This document shows, piece after piece, positions 10,406-18,366 of a stretch of 46,198 bases of DNA (position 1 is its first letter; every line of letters starts with the position of its first letter). The notes below the pieces were generated by a model, which was not told the origin of the DNA, made no database searches, and saw nothing but the letters and a program-made list of their open reading frames with translations. The position numbers and the translations under genes were made by a program. This DNA is from Chloroflexota bacterium (GTDB lineage Bacteria > Chloroflexota > Dehalococcoidia > SM23-28-2 > RBG-16-64-32): the NCBI GenBank assembly GCA_005882985.1, contig VBEJ01000037.1:1-46198 (forward strand), in the 5' to 3' direction.

Positions 10406-11296
10406 CTAAGGCGAATCTTCGAGCCTGGTCTGGACGTCCTTCAAGAAGCCCTCCAGCTCCGGGGATAGTTCGGGCTTCTCCTCCGGCGGTTCCTCTTTCT
10501 CGGAATCGTAAACCCGCTCAAGCTCGGCGACCATCGCCTGCAACTGCGGATTTTGGGCAACGGACTCGTTCATGGCCTCGCGTTGGCGCTGACTCTCCTC
10601 ATGCAGGGGCGAGGTGTCGAGATCGAGAGAATAAACACGAGAGAGAATCTCCAGAAGAGCCTCGGTCCCGCAGTAATCGCGCTCGAGCTGCACGTAGGCC
10701 GGGAGCTGGAGGATTATGCTCGCCGTTTCGATGCCTTCGCCCGAGGCCATTTGAGGCATGATGGCGAGAATCGTGGTGGGGCCTTCATAGGCGCTTTCCC
10801 GGACGCCAGCGCGCTGCACTTGCTCGCGAAGTCCTTCGCTGGCCGCGCCGCCGCTGGCAACAGGCGGGCGGGTATGGGGCACCGGTGAATACATCGAGCC
10901 GATGAGCGTGTACTGGCGAGCGCCGAACTGTCGAATCAGGCCGAGAACTGCCTCGACGTAATCCTCGCCGTGCGAGTGCGGCTCGAGCGCATGGAGGAAG
11001 AGCCACTCCTGACCGGAGGGCGACTTCGCATAGCGGAGGAAGGTGTTAGGGACGGCCACGTGCCGCTCTCCTTCTCGACGGAAGAGCATGGGACGGTAGC
11101 GGCTGAAGTCGTAAAAGACGCCGGGGCGCCTGAGCCGGCCGATCTCCTGGCCGTCCCACTGCTTCTCAAGAAAGCTGAGTGCCATGGTGCCGACCGAACC
11201 GACATCTATCCACGGTTGCAGGGCGATGAGAAGGCGCGGGCGGTCGAGGTCAGGCAGCGGGTATACGAGTTCGAAGGCAGACTCGGCAGCGGTCAT
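10406..11296 (-). CDS. PAC2-family (proteasome assembly chaperone 2-like) protein
   Basis: A 296-residue member of the PAC2/DUF75 family. The opening strand-helix unit PRLLIALQPWIDVGSVGTMA is the PAC2 signature. Further family regions are EEWLFLHALEPHSHG-like text (QEWLFLHALEPH), RQYTLIGSMYSPVPHTRP and AYVQLERDYCGTEALLEIL. The last 60 residues are acidic and helical (ELERVYDSEKEEPPEEK), probably a coiled tail. Family members are known mainly from archaea and actinobacteria as proteasome-assembly-like or ATP-grasp-associated proteins; a precise role here is unknown. Its ATG overlaps the stop of the MBL gene by 4 bases (ATGA), so the two are translationally coupled. Confidence 0.85.
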   Translation of the reverse strand: MTAAESAFELVYPLPDLDRPRLLIALQPWIDVGSVGTMALSFLEKQWDGQEIGRLRRPGVFYDFSRYRPMLFRREGERHVAVPNTFLRYAKSPSGQEWLFLHALEPHSHGEDYVEAVLGLIRQFGARQYTLIGSMYSPVPHTRPPVASGGAASEGLREQVQRAGVRESAYEGPTTILAIMPQMASGEGIETASIILQLPAYVQLERDYCGTEALLEILSRVYSLDLDTSPLHEESQRQREAMNESVAQNPQLQAMVAELERVYDSEKEEPPEEKPELSPELEGFLKDVQTRLEDSP

Positions 11297-12564
11297 CCAA
11301 GGGCCTTCAGGTTAGCCTCCGCCTCACGAATAGCGGAGAGAAAAGCGCCGCGCGCCATGAGCGATGGCTCAGCGGCGGCGCGCGCGGCGAACAGGTCCCG
11401 CCACAGTTCCCACGCCTCGCGGTTCTCCGGCTCTCCCTTGCGGACGAAATCGGCGAGGTGGCAGGCCATCCTTACATCACCTTCGTCCCCAAGTCTGCGA
11501 GCGCGGTCGAGGATCGGCGAGGATCCCGTCGCAGCGACGAGCGCTGCGGCGATATCGTAGGAGTGCGCAGGCAGTATATCGGCGGGGTCGCCGTCGTACC
11601 AGCCGCCGTAGAGGCGGTAGACGTTTCGAGCGATGAACTCCGGGTGATCGTAGATGGGCTGTAGCCACGGCTTGTCGGTGGCAGGCCAGTCAATGTCGCG
11701 GATGATGTCTTCCAGCCACTTGCCTTCGTTCATGCCCGCAATGACCTGATCGTGAATGGAGCGCAGGAAGTACGCGGTGGTGAGAAGAGCCTCCTGGATG
11801 CGTTCCTCCCCGGAGAGGACGGGGCCGTGCCCGGGAAATAGGTGCTGCGGTCGGAGGCCGGCCATGCGCTCGAGGCCCCGCGCCCAGTCCAACGCGTAGC
11901 GCTGGACCTTATACGGATTGCCGGCGTTCGGGGAGCACCAGACGAACGTGTCGCCGGTGCAGACAACCCGCTTTGACGGGCACCAGACCCAGGTCTCGTC
12001 GTCTGTCTCACCCCTGCAATGATGGAGCTCGAAGACCACCCCGCCGACAGTGGTGACGATATCTGTGTCGTAGGTGGTGTCGGGGTAGGTGAGTGCGGCT
12101 TCGGAGAACGGCTTGGCATCGGGCGGCAGGTTGAATTGGACGCGGTTGATGTGGTCATTCTGGCGGGCGAGCAGGCGGTAGCGATCGAAGCGGGCGGGCA
12201 GATCGCGGTGGGCGATGATGTTCGGACGGTGGTCGCCGCGATTCCGGGCCTCGGCGATGATCGCGTCGGCGCCAGTCACGTGATCGATGTGACCGTGGGT
12301 GTACACGATCGCCTCGACGGGCGCCTGGGTGTAATTCGCACGCAAGCCGGAGAGTATGGCCGGCGTGAAGCGCTGCTGGGCGGTATCGACGATGAGCACG
12401 CCTTGCTCGCCGATAAAGGCGGTGGAGTTGCCGAGGGCCGGGAAGAAGGCCACTCCCTCAGTTACAAGCTTGGGGTCGCCGAGATGAAAGAAGGCGGCCT
12501 GTTCAGGCGGGAGGGTGCGGGCAGAACTGAAATCGAGGCGCTCGGTCGGTACTGACTGGGTCAT
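11293..12564 (-). CDS. Metallo-beta-lactamase-fold hydrolase with alkylsulfatase-like C-terminal region
   Basis: A 423-residue MBL-fold hydrolase. The dinuclear zinc motif is THGHIDHV at about residues 89-96, with further ligands expected in FELHHCRGETDDE, VVCTGDTF and LFPGHGPVL. The segment ARNVYRLYGGWYDGDPADILP matches the dimerisation domain of SdsA-type alkyl/aryl sulfatases, so hydrolysis of alkyl sulfate esters is a reasonable but unproven guess. The N-terminus has no signal peptide, which suggests a cytoplasmic enzyme. AGGAG lies 7 bases before ATG 12564. It is the first gene of a two-gene operon with the PAC2 gene. A near-match to the LexA box (GAACGGGCGTTA) at 12613-12624 was not counted. 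Confidence 0.88.
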   Translation of the reverse strand: MTQSVPTERLDFSSARTLPPEQAAFFHLGDPKLVTEGVAFFPALGNSTAFIGEQGVLIVDTAQQRFTPAILSGLRANYTQAPVEAIVYTHGHIDHVTGADAIIAEARNRGDHRPNIIAHRDLPARFDRYRLLARQNDHINRVQFNLPPDAKPFSEAALTYPDTTYDTDIVTTVGGVVFELHHCRGETDDETWVWCPSKRVVCTGDTFVWCSPNAGNPYKVQRYALDWARGLERMAGLRPQHLFPGHGPVLSGEERIQEALLTTAYFLRSIHDQVIAGMNEGKWLEDIIRDIDWPATDKPWLQPIYDHPEFIARNVYRLYGGWYDGDPADILPAHSYDIAAALVAATGSSPILDRARRLGDEGDVRMACHLADFVRKGEPENREAWELWRDLFAARAAAEPSLMARGAFLSAIREAEANLKALG

Positions 12565-12868: not shown

Positions 12869-13483
12869 TCACTCTTTGACAGCGGCCACTATGGCATCCG
12901 CAGCCACGGAGAGCGGCAGGACGTCGGTGTTGAGCACCATGTCATAGTGAGTAGAGAGCTCTGTTCCAATACCGTAGAACCGCTCGAGATATTTCTTGCG
13001 CTCGCGGTCTGAGTCTTCAACCGCCTTCCCGGCTTGGCGCGCGTCAACGCTGCCCTGAGCAGACAGCCTGGCGGCACGCGATTCCGATGATCCTGTGATG
13101 AGCACGCGAACAACGCCGCCCGCTTCCGCGAGTGGGATGCTGGCCCCGTGCGCGAGGATGACCACATTGCCCTGCGCGGCCGTCTCCAAGATCACTTGCT
13201 CGATGAGAGCCTCGTATCCCGGCGAGGTGTGAGCAGACGGCGGAACGTAGCCGGCGGGCTCGACGGCAGTCGAGCCCATTTGCTGGAGGATGCGCTGGAT
13301 AAGCGGCGGCGTGCGCTCGATCCGGGCCATTTTTTCAGGTGAGACGCCGGCCTTCTCTGCGGCAGTGGCGACTATCTCCTCATCGACGAAGCGAAAGCCG
13401 AGTCTGGCGGCTACATCGCGGCCGATCTCTTCCCCGCCCGCGCCAAGCGCGCGCGAAATGCTGATGACCTTGCATTGCCACAT
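12869..13483 (-). CDS. Cytidylate-kinase-like family protein
   Basis: A 204-residue P-loop-kinase-like protein of the Cytidylate_kin2 family. The N-terminal SISRALGAGGEEIGRDVA resembles the CMK P-loop but lacks the classical GxxxxGK[ST], as is usual in this family. Then come GFRFVDEEIV, VILAHGASIP, RVLITGSSESRAARL and the YGIGTELSTHYDMVLNTD region. Substrate is unknown; members are often annotated only by similarity. It lies 50 bases downstream of the CerR-like gene on the same strand, and so could be the last gene of the ceramide-like operon. However, it also has its own TATAAT at 13507-13512 and GAGAGG before ATG 13483. Confidence 0.85.
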   Translation of the reverse strand: MWQCKVISISRALGAGGEEIGRDVAARLGFRFVDEEIVATAAEKAGVSPEKMARIERTPPLIQRILQQMGSTAVEPAGYVPPSAHTSPGYEALIEQVILETAAQGNVVILAHGASIPLAEAGGVVRVLITGSSESRAARLSAQGSVDARQAGKAVEDSDRERKKYLERFYGIGTELSTHYDMVLNTDVLPLSVAADAIVAAVKE

Positions 13484-13506
13484 GTGAACCTCTCTTGCCG
13501 GCGCGG

Positions 13507-13512
13507 ATTATA
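13507..13512 (-). promoter_or_regulatory. TATAAT -10-like box upstream of the cytidylate-kinase-like gene
   Basis: A perfect minus-strand TATAAT in the 50-base gap before ATG 13483. It would give a leader of about 17 bases containing the GAGAGG ribosome site. No good -35 is visible at 16-18 bases, so this is tentative. Confidence 0.3.
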
Positions 13513-13533
13513 CAACGGCCGCGAGGAAACGTT

Positions 13534-14514
13534 TCAGATCCAGCGTTCCCGACGGTACCAGTCGGCGGTGAGCTTTGCTCCTGATCGAATGTCAATCGAA
13601 GGAACCCAACCAGTATCCCGCCGGAGGTCGTCGCTGGAACACATCCAGTGGCGCTGAGCCATTTCCCGCACCTTGTCGCGGGTGAGTGGGACGGCGCGGC
13701 GGGCAGCGAACCCAAACGTCTCGCTGACGATCGCGGCGGCGGAGAAGGCCCAGCGCGGGGCGCTAAGGCGGAGGGCTCGCCTGCCTACGGCCTCTTCGAT
13801 CGCGGCGAGGAGATCGCGCCAGGTGTGGACGTGTCCGTCTTCGGGACAGTAGACCTTGCCTTCGACATCGGCCTCGGCTGTGGTCGCCAGGCAGATGGCG
13901 CGGGCGGCATCTTCCGCGAAGACGATCGAGATGCGGTTATGCCCGCCCATCAGGAGCGGGGCTACTCTAAACCGGGCGAGACGGAAGAAGGGCACGAGGG
14001 CCGGGTCGCGCGGGCCGTAGATCACCGGGGGCCGGAAAATGACGGCTCGCGGGGCGAGGGCGGACGCCCGGACGTTATCCTCTCCGGCGAGCTTGCTGCG
14101 GCCGTACGCGCTCACCGGCATCGCAGGCGCGTTCCGTGGCCGGGGAGCGCCGTCCGGGCTTGGGCCATGCGCGGCGAGACTGGAGACATACACGAACCGC
14201 TTGACCGACGCTGATTGCTCTGCGGCACGAACGAGGTTCGCAGTGCCTTCAGCATTGACCGCGTCGAATTCGGCTTCCTTACGGGCTTTAATGAGGCCGG
14301 CGGCGTGGATGACCGCATCGATGCCTTGGACGGCAACCGGCAGTGTCGCCGCATCGGTAATGTCGCCGGCCGTTTCTTCGTAGGCGAGGGCTGAGAGAAA
14401 GCGCCGGGGGCTGGTCCTGCGGAGGAGCAAGCGGACGCTGTGGCCCTGGCCGGCGAGCTGCTCAGCGATATGAGAGCCAAGGAAGCCGCTGGCGCCGGTG
14501 ATGAGCACCTTCAT
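13534..14514 (-). CDS. NAD(P)-dependent epimerase/dehydratase (extended SDR); CerR-like 3-oxo-sphingoid reductase candidate
   Basis: A 326-residue extended short-chain dehydrogenase. The Rossmann motif GASGFLGSH is at residues 7-15, the catalytic pair is in YGRSK, and conserved elements VIHAAGL, VYVSSLAAHG and FRPPVIYGPRD are clear. Family similarity alone gives only a sugar- or steroid-type NAD-dependent oxidoreductase. The context is more telling: it begins 2 bases after the stop of a bCerS/YghO-like acyltransferase and follows a serine-palmitoyltransferase-like gene, the same trio as spt, bcerS and cerR of Caulobacter. I therefore infer reduction of the 3-keto group of an N-acylated or free sphingoid base. 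That role is inference; the SDR call is secure. Confidence 0.85.
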   Translation of the reverse strand: MKVLITGASGFLGSHIAEQLAGQGHSVRLLLRRTSPRRFLSALAYEETAGDITDAATLPVAVQGIDAVIHAAGLIKARKEAEFDAVNAEGTANLVRAAEQSASVKRFVYVSSLAAHGPSPDGAPRPRNAPAMPVSAYGRSKLAGEDNVRASALAPRAVIFRPPVIYGPRDPALVPFFRLARFRVAPLLMGGHNRISIVFAEDAARAICLATTAEADVEGKVYCPEDGHVHTWRDLLAAIEEAVGRRALRLSAPRWAFSAAAIVSETFGFAARRAVPLTRDKVREMAQRHWMCSSDDLRRDTGWVPSIDIRSGAKLTADWYRRERWI

Positions 14515-14516
14515 GA

Positions 14517-15587
14517 CTAGAGAGGCTTCTCATAAATGCGATAGGTCTTGTAATGGCGGCAACCAACCTTCGTGATGAGCGAGTTGATCAGATGGTTGTC
14601 CTCGAGGGTCCAGGAGAACTCAGCCCATTCGTAGCCGCGCTGGCCGGCCCGACGGTAGATTTCGTCGCAGAGAAGATAGGCGAGGCCTGCATAGCGGCGG
14701 GTCCGGAACTCCTTGCGCACCCCCAGCAGCAGGAGACGGCCGTTGCGTGGGCGGCGGACCTTGAGCCGCCAGAGCAGCTTGACGAACCCAAGAGGGAACA
14801 GCCGCCCATCGAGGTCGCGGATAGCGTCGTTCAGGTTGGGAACGGCGAGAGCGAAGGCGGCCGCCTTTCCATCGATCTCTACGAACGAAACAAGGTGCGG
14901 GTCGGCGATGAACTTGAGGTCACGCGACATTTGCCGCGCCTCGGCCTCGGTCGCCGGAACGAAGCCCCAGTTCTCGCTCCACGCATCGTTGTAGAGCTGC
15001 AGAATCGTGCGGACCTCGTCGTCGAAATGCTTCATGTCGGCGATGCGGACGCGGACTTCCGGGCGCGAGCGCAGTTGGCGGACCATGCGAGCGGGGCCTT
15101 CGGGCACCGGCTGGCTCTCCCAGCGCCAGGCGTAGAGGTCCTGGACCTTCGCGTAACTGGCTGCTTCGACGAGATCCAGGTAGTAGGCGTTGGTGTAAGG
15201 CATCAGGATTTGGGGCGGGGAATCGAATCCTTCAACGAGAAAGCCGACTTCGCCGTTGACGGAGAAGTTGAGCGGGCCGCGAATGCGCTCCATCCCTCTG
15301 TCACGTTGCCAGATCTCCGCCGAATTGAGGAGAGCCGAGGCGACAGCAGTGTCATTCTCACACTCGAAGAAGCCGAAGAAGCCGGTGCGTTCGTTATGGT
15401 AGCGATTCTGCTCGTGGTCGATCTGAGCCGAGATGCGGCCAGCAACGTGGCCATCGCGGCGGGCCACAAAGAGTTGAACATCTGCGTGCTCAAAGAACGG
15501 GTTGTGCTTCGGCGAGAACAGCTCGTGTTGCAGGCGCAGGAGGGGCGGCACCCAGTTGGGGTTCCTTCGGTAGAGGCGCCAGGGCAA
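14517..15587 (-). CDS. GNAT-fold N-acyltransferase of the YghO/bacterial ceramide synthase (bCerS) type
   Basis: At least 356 residues. The pattern is that of the large GNAT-related proteins called YghO in E. coli and bCerS in Caulobacter: PWRLYRRNPNWVPPLL, FFEHADVQLFVARRDG, GPLNFSVNGEVGFLVEGFD, PYTNAYYLDLVEAASYAK, and a C-terminal acetyltransferase-like fold with LLLLGVRKEFRTRRYAGLA. Caulobacter bCerS N-acylates the sphingoid base. The start is unsettled. TTG 15587 is the only usual start codon, but coding similarity (VASKRDLEDFIRL) continues upstream into the 3' end of the SPT-like gene, where this frame has no ATG, GTG or TTG. Translational coupling, or +1 slippage at the SPT stop, would explain it. 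It ends 2 bases before the CerR-like gene. Confidence 0.82.
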   Translation of the reverse strand: MPWRLYRRNPNWVPPLLRLQHELFSPKHNPFFEHADVQLFVARRDGHVAGRISAQIDHEQNRYHNERTGFFGFFECENDTAVASALLNSAEIWQRDRGMERIRGPLNFSVNGEVGFLVEGFDSPPQILMPYTNAYYLDLVEAASYAKVQDLYAWRWESQPVPEGPARMVRQLRSRPEVRVRIADMKHFDDEVRTILQLYNDAWSENWGFVPATEAEARQMSRDLKFIADPHLVSFVEIDGKAAAFALAVPNLNDAIRDLDGRLFPLGFVKLLWRLKVRRPRNGRLLLLGVRKEFRTRRYAGLAYLLCDEIYRRAGQRGYEWAEFSWTLEDNHLINSLITKVGCRHYKTYRIYEKPL

Positions 15588-15657
15588 GCGGATAAAGTCC
15601 TCGAGGTCGCGTTTGGATGCAACCGCTGTTACGGAAACGGCGGTGGCGGGCGGAGAG

Positions 15658-16962
15658 CTAGGAGAGGATACCTTGTCTGCGGCCGACAGTTCGGAAGCGC
15701 TCCAAGGCTTGCTCGATCTGCTCTGGGGTATGAGTGGCCATGCAGCTAGTGCGCAACATCGCCTTGCCCATCGGGACTGCCGGGTAGACCACGGGGTTGG
15801 TGTAGACGCCGTCTTCGATCAGCGATTTCCAGAACATCACGGTGCTGTACTCGTCGCCCACGTTCACCGGCACGATCGGTGTCTCCGAGCGGCCGACATC
15901 GAAGCCCATGTCGCTCAAACCTTGCCTCCACTGCGCCGCGAGCTTGTGGAGGCGGTCGACCATCTCGGGTTCGCGCTCGAGTACATCGAGGGCGGCTAGC
16001 GCGGCGGCGGTAGAAGCTGGTGGAAGGCTGGCGCTGAAGATGAGGGTGCGGCCGAAGTGCTTTACCCAGTCGAGCACCTTTCGCGGGCCAGCAATGAACC
16101 CACCTATAGACGCGAGAGACTTGGAAAATGTGCCCATGACGAGATCTACACCGTCTTCCAGGCCGAAATGGCTGCCTGTGCCCCGGCCGCCTTCGCCGAT
16201 CACGCCGATGGCATGGGCGTCGTCTACCAGAAGCCGGGCTCCGTGCTTGCGGCAGACATCGACGATGCCTGGGAGGTCAGCGATATCACCGCCCATGCTG
16301 AACACGCCGTCGATTACCACAAGACAGGCCTTATTCTCGCCTATCCTGATGAGAACGGAATCGAGGTGAGCGGCGCTATTGTGGTTGAAGCGGACCATCT
16401 CGCCGTCGGCCAAACGGCAGCCGTCATAAATGCTGGCGTGGTCGGACTTATCGACAACAGCGACCGATCGGCGGCCGACAAGAGAGGAGATGACACCGAG
16501 ATTCGTTTGATAACCCGTTGTGAAGACCAGCGCCGCTTCTTTGTTAACAAAGCGGGCGATACGACGCTCCAGTTCTTCATGCATATGGGTGCTGCCGTTG
16601 AGCAGGCGCGAGCCGGTCATCGAAGTGCCATATTTGAGAAGAGCGCGCGCCGCCGAATCGACGACGTAAGGGTGGCGGGTGAGACCGAGGTAGTTGTTGG
16701 AGCCGAACATGAGGACGCGCTTGCCGTAGATTTGCGCCTGCGGGCCATCATTGTTGTCGAGCGGCTGAAAGAAGGGATATATTTGGCGCTCACGCGCCTG
16801 GTCCGCGAGCGCAAACTCGTTGGCCTTGGAGAAGATATCGCGGCCGTCCTGGCCATCGTAGCGGTGCGCCAGCATGGCCTCGATGGTCATGTCTGGTGGC
16901 AGTTCGGGGAAGGAGACCGCGGCCGGCTCGCCGTCCTGTTTGCGTCGAGTTCGCTGGGCCAT
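15658..16962 (-). CDS. Serine palmitoyltransferase-like PLP enzyme (alpha-oxoamine synthase family)
   Basis: A 434-residue PLP enzyme that would join an acyl thioester to an amino acid with decarboxylation. It shows GSNNYLGLTRHP, the cofactor-stacking histidine in DKSDHASIYDG, the aspartate/histidine pair in LVDDAHAIGVIG, and Schiff-base lysine K281 in GTFSKSLASIGGF. The string GTFSKS followed by GGFIAG is typical of serine palmitoyltransferases; BioF and glycine C-acetyltransferase usually carry GTLGKA. A 70-residue N-terminal part (RYDGQDGRDIFSKANEF) precedes the catalytic fold. The neighbouring bCerS-like and CerR-like genes support sphingoid-base synthesis. ATG 16962 is preferred; GTG 16974 and TTG 17025 are in frame upstream. 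TATAGT lies 11-16 bases before the ATG. BioF- or Kbl-type activity cannot be excluded by eye. Confidence 0.85.
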   Translation of the reverse strand: MAQRTRRKQDGEPAAVSFPELPPDMTIEAMLAHRYDGQDGRDIFSKANEFALADQARERQIYPFFQPLDNNDGPQAQIYGKRVLMFGSNNYLGLTRHPYVVDSAARALLKYGTSMTGSRLLNGSTHMHEELERRIARFVNKEAALVFTTGYQTNLGVISSLVGRRSVAVVDKSDHASIYDGCRLADGEMVRFNHNSAAHLDSVLIRIGENKACLVVIDGVFSMGGDIADLPGIVDVCRKHGARLLVDDAHAIGVIGEGGRGTGSHFGLEDGVDLVMGTFSKSLASIGGFIAGPRKVLDWVKHFGRTLIFSASLPPASTAAALAALDVLEREPEMVDRLHKLAAQWRQGLSDMGFDVGRSETPIVPVNVGDEYSTVMFWKSLIEDGVYTNPVVYPAVPMGKAMLRTSCMATHTPEQIEQALERFRTVGRRQGILS

Positions 16963-17074: not shown

Positions 17075-17905
17075 CTACCGGGAGTCGCCGGTCTTTGGAA
17101 GCCGCTTCAGGTAGTGCGAGTAGGCAGCGACAGGCCGGAAGCCCATCGCGGCGTACATCCGCTTTGGTGTATCCGCTGGGTCGGCCACGATGACCACGGG
17201 GCCTACGCCATTGCGCCGGCACTCGGATACACAATGGTGGATGAGAGCTGTCGCCAGGCCACGATGGCGAAACCTAGGATGCGTGAACAGATCCTCGACT
17301 TGGCCAACGTCGTCGATGCCGCGCCATGAGTTGAAATAGGCGAGCGGACGGCCCTTCAGGCAAGCAAACCAGTATTGCACCGGCGGCTGCTTGAGACGCG
17401 CGACCGCGTAAAGCGCTTCGCCCACCGCCGGCTCGGGTGCTTTCTTGATCCGGCCCTCATGTTCGAGCCAGTCCAGCTTTTTGAGCGCCGCGTATTCCCG
17501 CCAGTCGTCCTCGGTCTGCACCGGCCTGATCTCGATGTCGGAAGGGCGCGCATGCAGGTCTCCCTCGAGGACCATCACCAGCGAATCGCGGCGCTCGTAG
17601 CCGTCGAGCAGGAGGCGGGCGACGAAGGCAGGCGGAGTCCGGAAGTCGACGCCGAACTCGCGATGGGCCGCGTGATCGTACTCTTGGTCGATCCGCGCGA
17701 GGAGGCTGTCAATCTCCTCGGGCGTCGACGCGCTTATTTGAGCGACGTGGTTTGCGTCGTAGATGAGCGGATAGGCGCGGTTGCGCACAAATGTGGCGCC
17801 GCAAGCCTCGAAAGTCTCGTGGCCGAGGGCAAGATTTGCGGCATCGACATCGAGCGCCCTGGAAGCGAGCGTGGTTTTCGCTTGGGCCGCTGTCGCATAG
17901 GTCAC
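17075..17905 (-). CDS. GNAT-family N-acetyltransferase
   Basis: A 276-residue protein. The C-terminal half is a GNAT acetyltransferase domain with the acetyl-CoA loop in VEDLFTHPRFRHRGLATALIHH, then GPVVIVADPADTPKRMYAAMGF, a typical beta5-alpha5 ending. The N-terminal 130 residues (LGHETFEACGATFVRN, YDANHVAQIS) resemble the N-terminal half of two-part GNAT proteins. Substrate is unknown. GTG 17905 is the start; TATTAT lies exactly at -12 to -7 of it, suggesting a leaderless transcript. It is followed by 112 bases and then the ceramide-like operon on the same strand. Confidence 0.88.
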   Translation of the reverse strand: MTYATAAQAKTTLASRALDVDAANLALGHETFEACGATFVRNRAYPLIYDANHVAQISASTPEEIDSLLARIDQEYDHAAHREFGVDFRTPPAFVARLLLDGYERRDSLVMVLEGDLHARPSDIEIRPVQTEDDWREYAALKKLDWLEHEGRIKKAPEPAVGEALYAVARLKQPPVQYWFACLKGRPLAYFNSWRGIDDVGQVEDLFTHPRFRHRGLATALIHHCVSECRRNGVGPVVIVADPADTPKRMYAAMGFRPVAAYSHYLKRLPKTGDSR

Positions 17906-17911
17906 CGGCCC

Positions 17912-17917
17912 ATAATA
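17912..17917 (-). promoter_or_regulatory. -10 element of the GNAT gene (leaderless arrangement)
   Basis: Minus-strand TATTAT with exactly six bases between it and GTG 17905, matching the spacing seen at ligD and gltA. No Shine-Dalgarno sequence is present and no clear -35 was found. Confidence 0.45.
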
Positions 17918-17973
17918 CCCGTTGAGCGCCGGCCTTCGCCACGCACTGGATCGAGCCCGGCGAGCGCTGCCGC

Positions 17974-18366
17974 TCAGGCCGGCCGGAAGGCAGTTGAGAA
18001 GCGGACGCCGTTGCGCTCATAGTGCTCGGCGGCCACTTCTTCTTTGCGAGACTCGGCTTGGGTGGCTGAAGCGACTGTCTTCTTACTTGAGTCCACGTTG
18101 TTGCCGTTGTCCCTGTTTGCCGCCTCGTCGCCGCTGGGTGCGGCCCCTTCATTCGCGTCGCCGCTGACGAGGGCGACGACGGGTCGGTGCCTCACTTGCA
18201 TATCCATCTCGGCGCCAGAGAAAACGCGGATGCGCGCCTGGTCGAAGCCGGCTTCGAGCAACGTTTCGACGAGCCGCGCGCCTTTCTGGGCGTTCTCGAC
18301 GACGTTGATCTCGCCGTGTTTCGGGTCGTCCGGATCGGCCACGATCACCATTACTTGTTCGGGCAT
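17974..18366 (-). CDS. Hypothetical protein, 130 residues
   Basis: Not recognised. An N-terminal folded part of about 70 residues (VMVIVADPDDPKHG, ARLVETLLEAGFDQARIRVFSGAEMD) looks like alternating strands and a helix. A polar, disordered segment rich in Asn, Asp, Ser and Glu follows, then a short basic end (YERNGVRFSTAFRPA). AGGAGG lies 9 bases before ATG 18366, a strong ribosome site; another ATG 7 bases upstream is in a different frame. Divergent from addB. The first 70 residues could be a small regulatory or stress-type domain, but no function is assigned. Confidence 0.7.
   Translation of the reverse strand: MPEQVMVIVADPDDPKHGEINVVENAQKGARLVETLLEAGFDQARIRVFSGAEMDMQVRHRPVVALVSGDANEGAAPSGDEAANRDNGNNVDSSKKTVASATQAESRKEEVAAEHYERNGVRFSTAFRPA

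Follow-up and report, generated by a model that had tools for sequence, protein, structure and literature searches.

A conserved gene trio in a Dehalococcoidia family (Chloroflexota) predicted to encode a bacterial ceramide-backbone pathway

In Escherichia coli BL21(DE3), yghO, aasR (encoding a fatty acyl-AMP ligase), cerR/epi, acpR (encoding an ACP), and spt lie side by side (ECD_02850-02854); the SPT of this strain forms 3-oxo-sphinganine, and reductase and acyltransferase roles have been proposed for the products of its neighbours (PMC9386255). In Caulobacter crescentus, which has spt, bcerS, and cerR, the order of the acylation and reduction steps is debated, CerR resides in the periplasm, and ceramide is exported towards the outer membrane (PMC11087976). 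In E. coli K-12, an IS5 element lies beside yghO, where BL21 carries the rest of the sphingolipid cluster; the K-12 gene product, listed in annotations as a putative DNA-binding regulator, is a bCerS-type acyltransferase (L151:5044-6216, L227:9283-14886).

For Chloroflexota, Ding et al. 2024 (PMC11334938) report Spt-like genes in 218 Black Sea metagenome-assembled genomes of the phylum, tie Anaerolineae to ceramides by correlation, and describe, across phyla, clade-B Spt-like proteins encoded on scaffolds that also carry bCerS and CerR. A further study extends the sphingolipid potential of the phylum to sediments and names Caldilineae (PMC12619533). Thus, the locus described here, which belongs to the same phylum and follows the same idea, is not notable merely as a Chloroflexota sphingolipid gene set, as a preliminary description had held. 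Dehalococcoidia, however, are absent from the main text of both papers, the former naming Anaerolineae, and the titles and abstracts of the literature gave nothing relevant on sphingolipids in Dehalococcoidia or SAR202. What is new is the assignment to Dehalococcoidia, the spread within this class, and the near-total absence of Omp85.

The stretch of DNA analysed (46,198 nucleotides, hereafter the window) corresponds to contig C131 in a draft genome assembly of 2.62 Mb with 83% completeness. A RecA tree, a single marker read at the class level, placed this genome in a Chloroflexota/Dehalococcoidia clade with 99/97 support, in agreement with the probable Chloroflexota host proposed earlier. Four open reading frames were found at the positions and on the strand that the preliminary description had given, all on the minus strand: an SPT-type alpha-oxoamine synthase (15658-16962; 434 residues from ATG 16962, with TTG 17025 as another possible start), a bCerS/YghO-type N-acyltransferase of GNAT fold (14517-15689, counted from the candidate start CTG 15689), a CerR-type NAD(P)-dependent reductase of the extended SDR type (13534-14514), and a Cytidylate_kin2-family kinase (12869-13483). 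Their Pfam matches were Aminotran_1_2 (217 bits), GNAT (26 bits), Epimerase (118 bits), and Cytidylate_kin2 (127 bits), respectively. The junctions are as compact as had been claimed, since the acyltransferase frame overlaps the SPT gene, which ends at 15658, and gaps of 2 and 50 bases separate the acyltransferase from the reductase gene and the latter from the kinase gene.

The three upstream genes of this set encode the same three core enzymes as the BL21(DE3) cluster, with identities of 40% for SPT, 38% for YghO (over 374 residues, full length), and 28% for the reductase (ECD_02852 product), and relatives from Caulobacteraceae share the SPT, bCerS, and CerR groups of the window proteins. 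The gene order differs from that of BL21(DE3). Neither acpR, for the dedicated ACP, nor aasR, for the acyl-AMP ligase, both of which accompany spt in the rhodobacterial SPT system, was found in the operon of the window or its immediate flanks, a point that tells against the ceramide assignment.

In a careful maximum-likelihood tree of 56 sequences, the synthase fell inside a 41-sequence SPT clade, whose branch had 100/100 support and was recovered in 200 of 200 bootstrap trees; the clade also holds the Sphingobacterium and Sphingomonas enzymes, and the Kbl, BioF, and ALAS proteins, as identified by NCBIfam models, lie outside it, bearing out the SPT-like call made previously. Among solved structures, the best match was the SPT of Sphingobacterium multivorum (3A2B, 8GUH; 394 bits), followed by the Sphingomonas SPT (299 bits) and Kbl (258 bits); the synthase is 46% identical to the S. 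multivorum SPT and 42% to that of S. paucimobilis. Its lysine motif, VMGTFSKSLASIGG, contains K281 within GTFSK (codon at about 16120-16122, minus strand), and K281, H175, D247, H250, N89, and R404 align with K244 (the PLP lysine), H138 (the stacking His), D210 and H213 (PLP contacts), and N52 and R367 (substrate residues) of the S. multivorum enzyme. Of the PLP- and substrate-contact residues checked, only Met271 differs, being Ile in the window protein, which is also longer by about 40 residues at its N-terminus. None of the NCBIfam SPT equivalog cut-offs was reached (490 against 640 for CFB, 414 against 500 for BetaP, and 328 against 670 for AlphaP); these models are lineage-specific, and the synthase is assigned no more narrowly than to the broad SPT clade. 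Collectively, the tree and the catalytic residues support an SPT-clade enzyme, for which serine condensation is predicted.

The acyltransferase was grouped with L105 and E. coli YghO in a 59-sequence clade (SH-aLRT 100), which contains the bCerS of Caulobacteraceae, as anticipated from its earlier designation as a bCerS/YghO-type GNAT enzyme. Its named relatives are from Dehalococcoidia (58% identity) and from Myxococcota, Zixiibacteriota, KSB1, Gemmatimonadota, and Caulobacteraceae (about 40-49%), and many of them have SPT and CerR alongside. A direct sequence search of solved structures gave marginal matches (best E 0.001); the predicted structure (pLDDT 92.5) found tandem GNAT proteins as its best PDB matches, with an E value of 8.7e-16. 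These data support membership in the bCerS/YghO family, and N-acylation of a sphingoid base is the predicted activity.

The start of the acyltransferase gene needs comment. TTG 15587 was rejected as being too late, because it would cut off a conserved upstream segment, alignable with relatives and with E. coli YghO, for which a strand and a helix are predicted with high confidence. Conservation in this frame can be followed from about 15640, and no ATG, GTG, or TTG occurs upstream of TTG 15587, though conserved coding runs on into the tail of the SPT gene. Some relatives offer an ATG, or a GTG that overlaps, at this place, and the window has GTA at the position of this GTG and CTG at 15689; CTG 15689 or another non-standard codon is the implied candidate start.

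Genes of this family also occur in other arrangements. In one genome (G007), two distant bCerS-like GNAT paralogs of 31-33% identity lie outside the SPT cluster (L036:1618-2760, L037:5359-6426). Two bCerS-type genes are found in one locus in some Myxococcaceae and in a Clostridia-labelled bin (L089, L093, L112, L087), and in the Myxococcota-type loci L071, L085, L103, and L106, bCerS and CerR are adjacent or near each other, with no close relative of SPT in the flanks covered.

The reductase carries the SDR nucleotide-binding motif TGASGFLG and the YxxxK motif YGRSK. In its tree, a 49-sequence CerR group (100/96) comprised all 43 reductases linked to SPT or bCerS, those of the window and BL21 included, in accordance with the CerR-like SDR assignment; six unlinked SDRs also lie inside the group, so that the assignment rests partly on gene context. 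This context is itself recurrent, the best match to the window CerR adjoining the best SPT match in seven of eight named genomes.

Comparison of the neighbourhood across related genomes, one of the checks proposed at the outset, showed strong conservation of the trio. Of the 15 family genomes, 14 have SPT, and the one that lacks it is 76% complete; SPT, bCerS, and CerR are contiguous, in the same order and on the same strand, in 13 of the 14. The recurrence of the contiguous trio in 12 family genomes besides that of the window, at protein identities of 57-94%, excludes a chance arrangement. In one family genome (G004), SPT is on a separate contig and the bCerS gene begins at a contig edge. In a genome of the same class (G044), SPT and CerR are paired and bCerS lies on another contig, indicating that none of the three is lost even where they are no longer together. 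SPT was not found in the 10 genomes examined from sister families of the same order, and elsewhere in the class it occurs in several families, 40 of the 294 sampled genomes having a match at E <= 1e-110.

Thus, the family membership of all three proteins holds in trees, as the three-enzyme ceramide route proposed beforehand presupposes, and with the catalytic residues and the conserved linkage, it makes us highly confident that the trio is a bacterial ceramide-backbone operon, with its lipid output predicted from sequence. From these data we infer substrates, products, and the sequence of the steps as in the following scheme; any headgroup and the placement in the membrane would likewise be matters of inference. 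SPT would join an amino acid, most likely serine and possibly alanine, to a long-chain acyl thioester, giving a 3-keto sphingoid base; the bCerS-type GNAT enzyme would then place a second acyl chain onto the amine; and the CerR-type reductase would act on the 3-keto group, yielding dihydroceramide or 1-deoxy-dihydroceramide. The range of the best-supported bacterial ceramide pathway would thereby come to include a Dehalococcoidia family, almost all of whose genomes carry it, and further families of this class.

The identity of the amino acid leaves room for a variant, in which the operon would use chiefly alanine in place of serine and produce 1-deoxyceramides. These lipids are abundant in the anoxic water of the Black Sea, where Spt-like genes are common (PMC11334938), and the S. 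multivorum SPT accepts alanine, with low efficiency (PMC10196870). Against this, the residues of the latter enzyme reported to contact the serine hydroxyl (Asn52, Gly80, and Ser243) are conserved in the window synthase; Asn52 and Gly80 are common to other alpha-oxoamine synthases, so that their conservation is no proof of a serine preference. We consider alanine as the main substrate unlikely, though deserving of attention, and retain serine in the ceramide-backbone reading.

The preliminary description had further suggested that the kinase might act on a downstream headgroup or precursor. The gene is co-directional and lies 50 bases downstream of CerR in the genus of the window, and it is near CerR in one more genus (G005), beyond which it does not adjoin the trio. 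In other genera, different genes occupy its position (RpiB-like, radical SAM, LPG-synthase-TM, or others), and because the genes downstream of CerR vary between genera in this way, no shared headgroup gene was found there. Moreover, besides this gene, the genome of the window encodes a canonical Cmk (C288) and another Cytidylate_kin2 member (C51), and Cytidylate_kin2 genes are common in SPT-free relatives. Synteny and the further kinase copies thus argue against a pathway enzyme, and the suggestion does not hold up: the kinase is probably not part of the ceramide pathway, and the combination of a functioning ceramide route with a kinase that phosphorylates ceramide or a headgroup precursor seems to us distinctly improbable.

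A sulfonolipid (capnine) pathway, with the synthase acting as a cysteate acyltransferase like SulA, has in its favour that SulA and SPT share the fold and the family and that their active sites differ at one clear position. At this position, the SulA-diagnostic Lys281 (PMC9304779), the window synthase has Ala311, within an alignment to the S. multivorum SPT that is ungapped from K244 to A274, on which ground a SulA identity was rejected. The cysteate acyltransferases in the PDB score only 256 and 253 bits against the 394 bits of SPT, and the CerR and bCerS groups fit the ceramide cluster, leaving this alternative very improbable. That the synthase is a housekeeping Kbl or BioF whose position next to the acyltransferase and reductase genes is accidental is barely credible, for, despite the generic bioF and gly_Cac_T_rel scores of 390 and 386 bits and its being the sole alpha-oxoamine synthase detected in the genome at E <= 1e-20, its place in the SPT clade speaks against either identity, the trio is contiguous in 13 family genomes, and SPT is missing from the 10 genomes of sister families, unlike a housekeeping gene.

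The ceramide-backbone operon lies in a setting that differs from that of Caulobacter, where ceramide is exported towards the outer membrane, in that the group of the window is almost without Omp85. No Omp85 was found in 25 of 26 genomes, that of the window included; the only matches among the 26 are two partial ones (C187 and C159) in G013, a genome with 6% contamination, and are possibly on contaminant contigs. This gene absence in draft genomes points to a probably monoderm lineage and thus implies sphingolipids in a probable monoderm. Replacement of glycerophospholipids by sphingolipids was considered and set aside, as genes for PlsY and a CDP-alcohol phosphotransferase are present; together with the absence of Omp85, they suggest that the lipid probably adds to phospholipids in a single-membrane cell. 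Whether Omp85-less Dehalococcoidia make ceramide-based lipids for a single-membrane envelope, by a pathway not tied to outer-membrane biology and with a reductase that works without the usual periplasm, is in our estimate an evenly balanced proposition. If such lipids are found, the view of bacterial sphingolipids as chiefly outer-membrane or LPS-substituting lipids would no longer stand, and Dehalococcoidia would become candidate sources of environmental sphingolipids.

Some flanking genes recur as well. A GNAT-family gene (17075-17905, minus strand), syntenic in three genera, lies upstream of SPT and is a neighbour not counted as part of the pathway; in several genera of the family, this GNAT gene and a small gene without a Pfam match (17075-18366 in the window) precede SPT. 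On the other side, a metallo-beta-lactamase gene with an alkyl-sulfatase dimerisation domain (11293-12564) is found near the trio in the genus of the window and also in G004 and G008.
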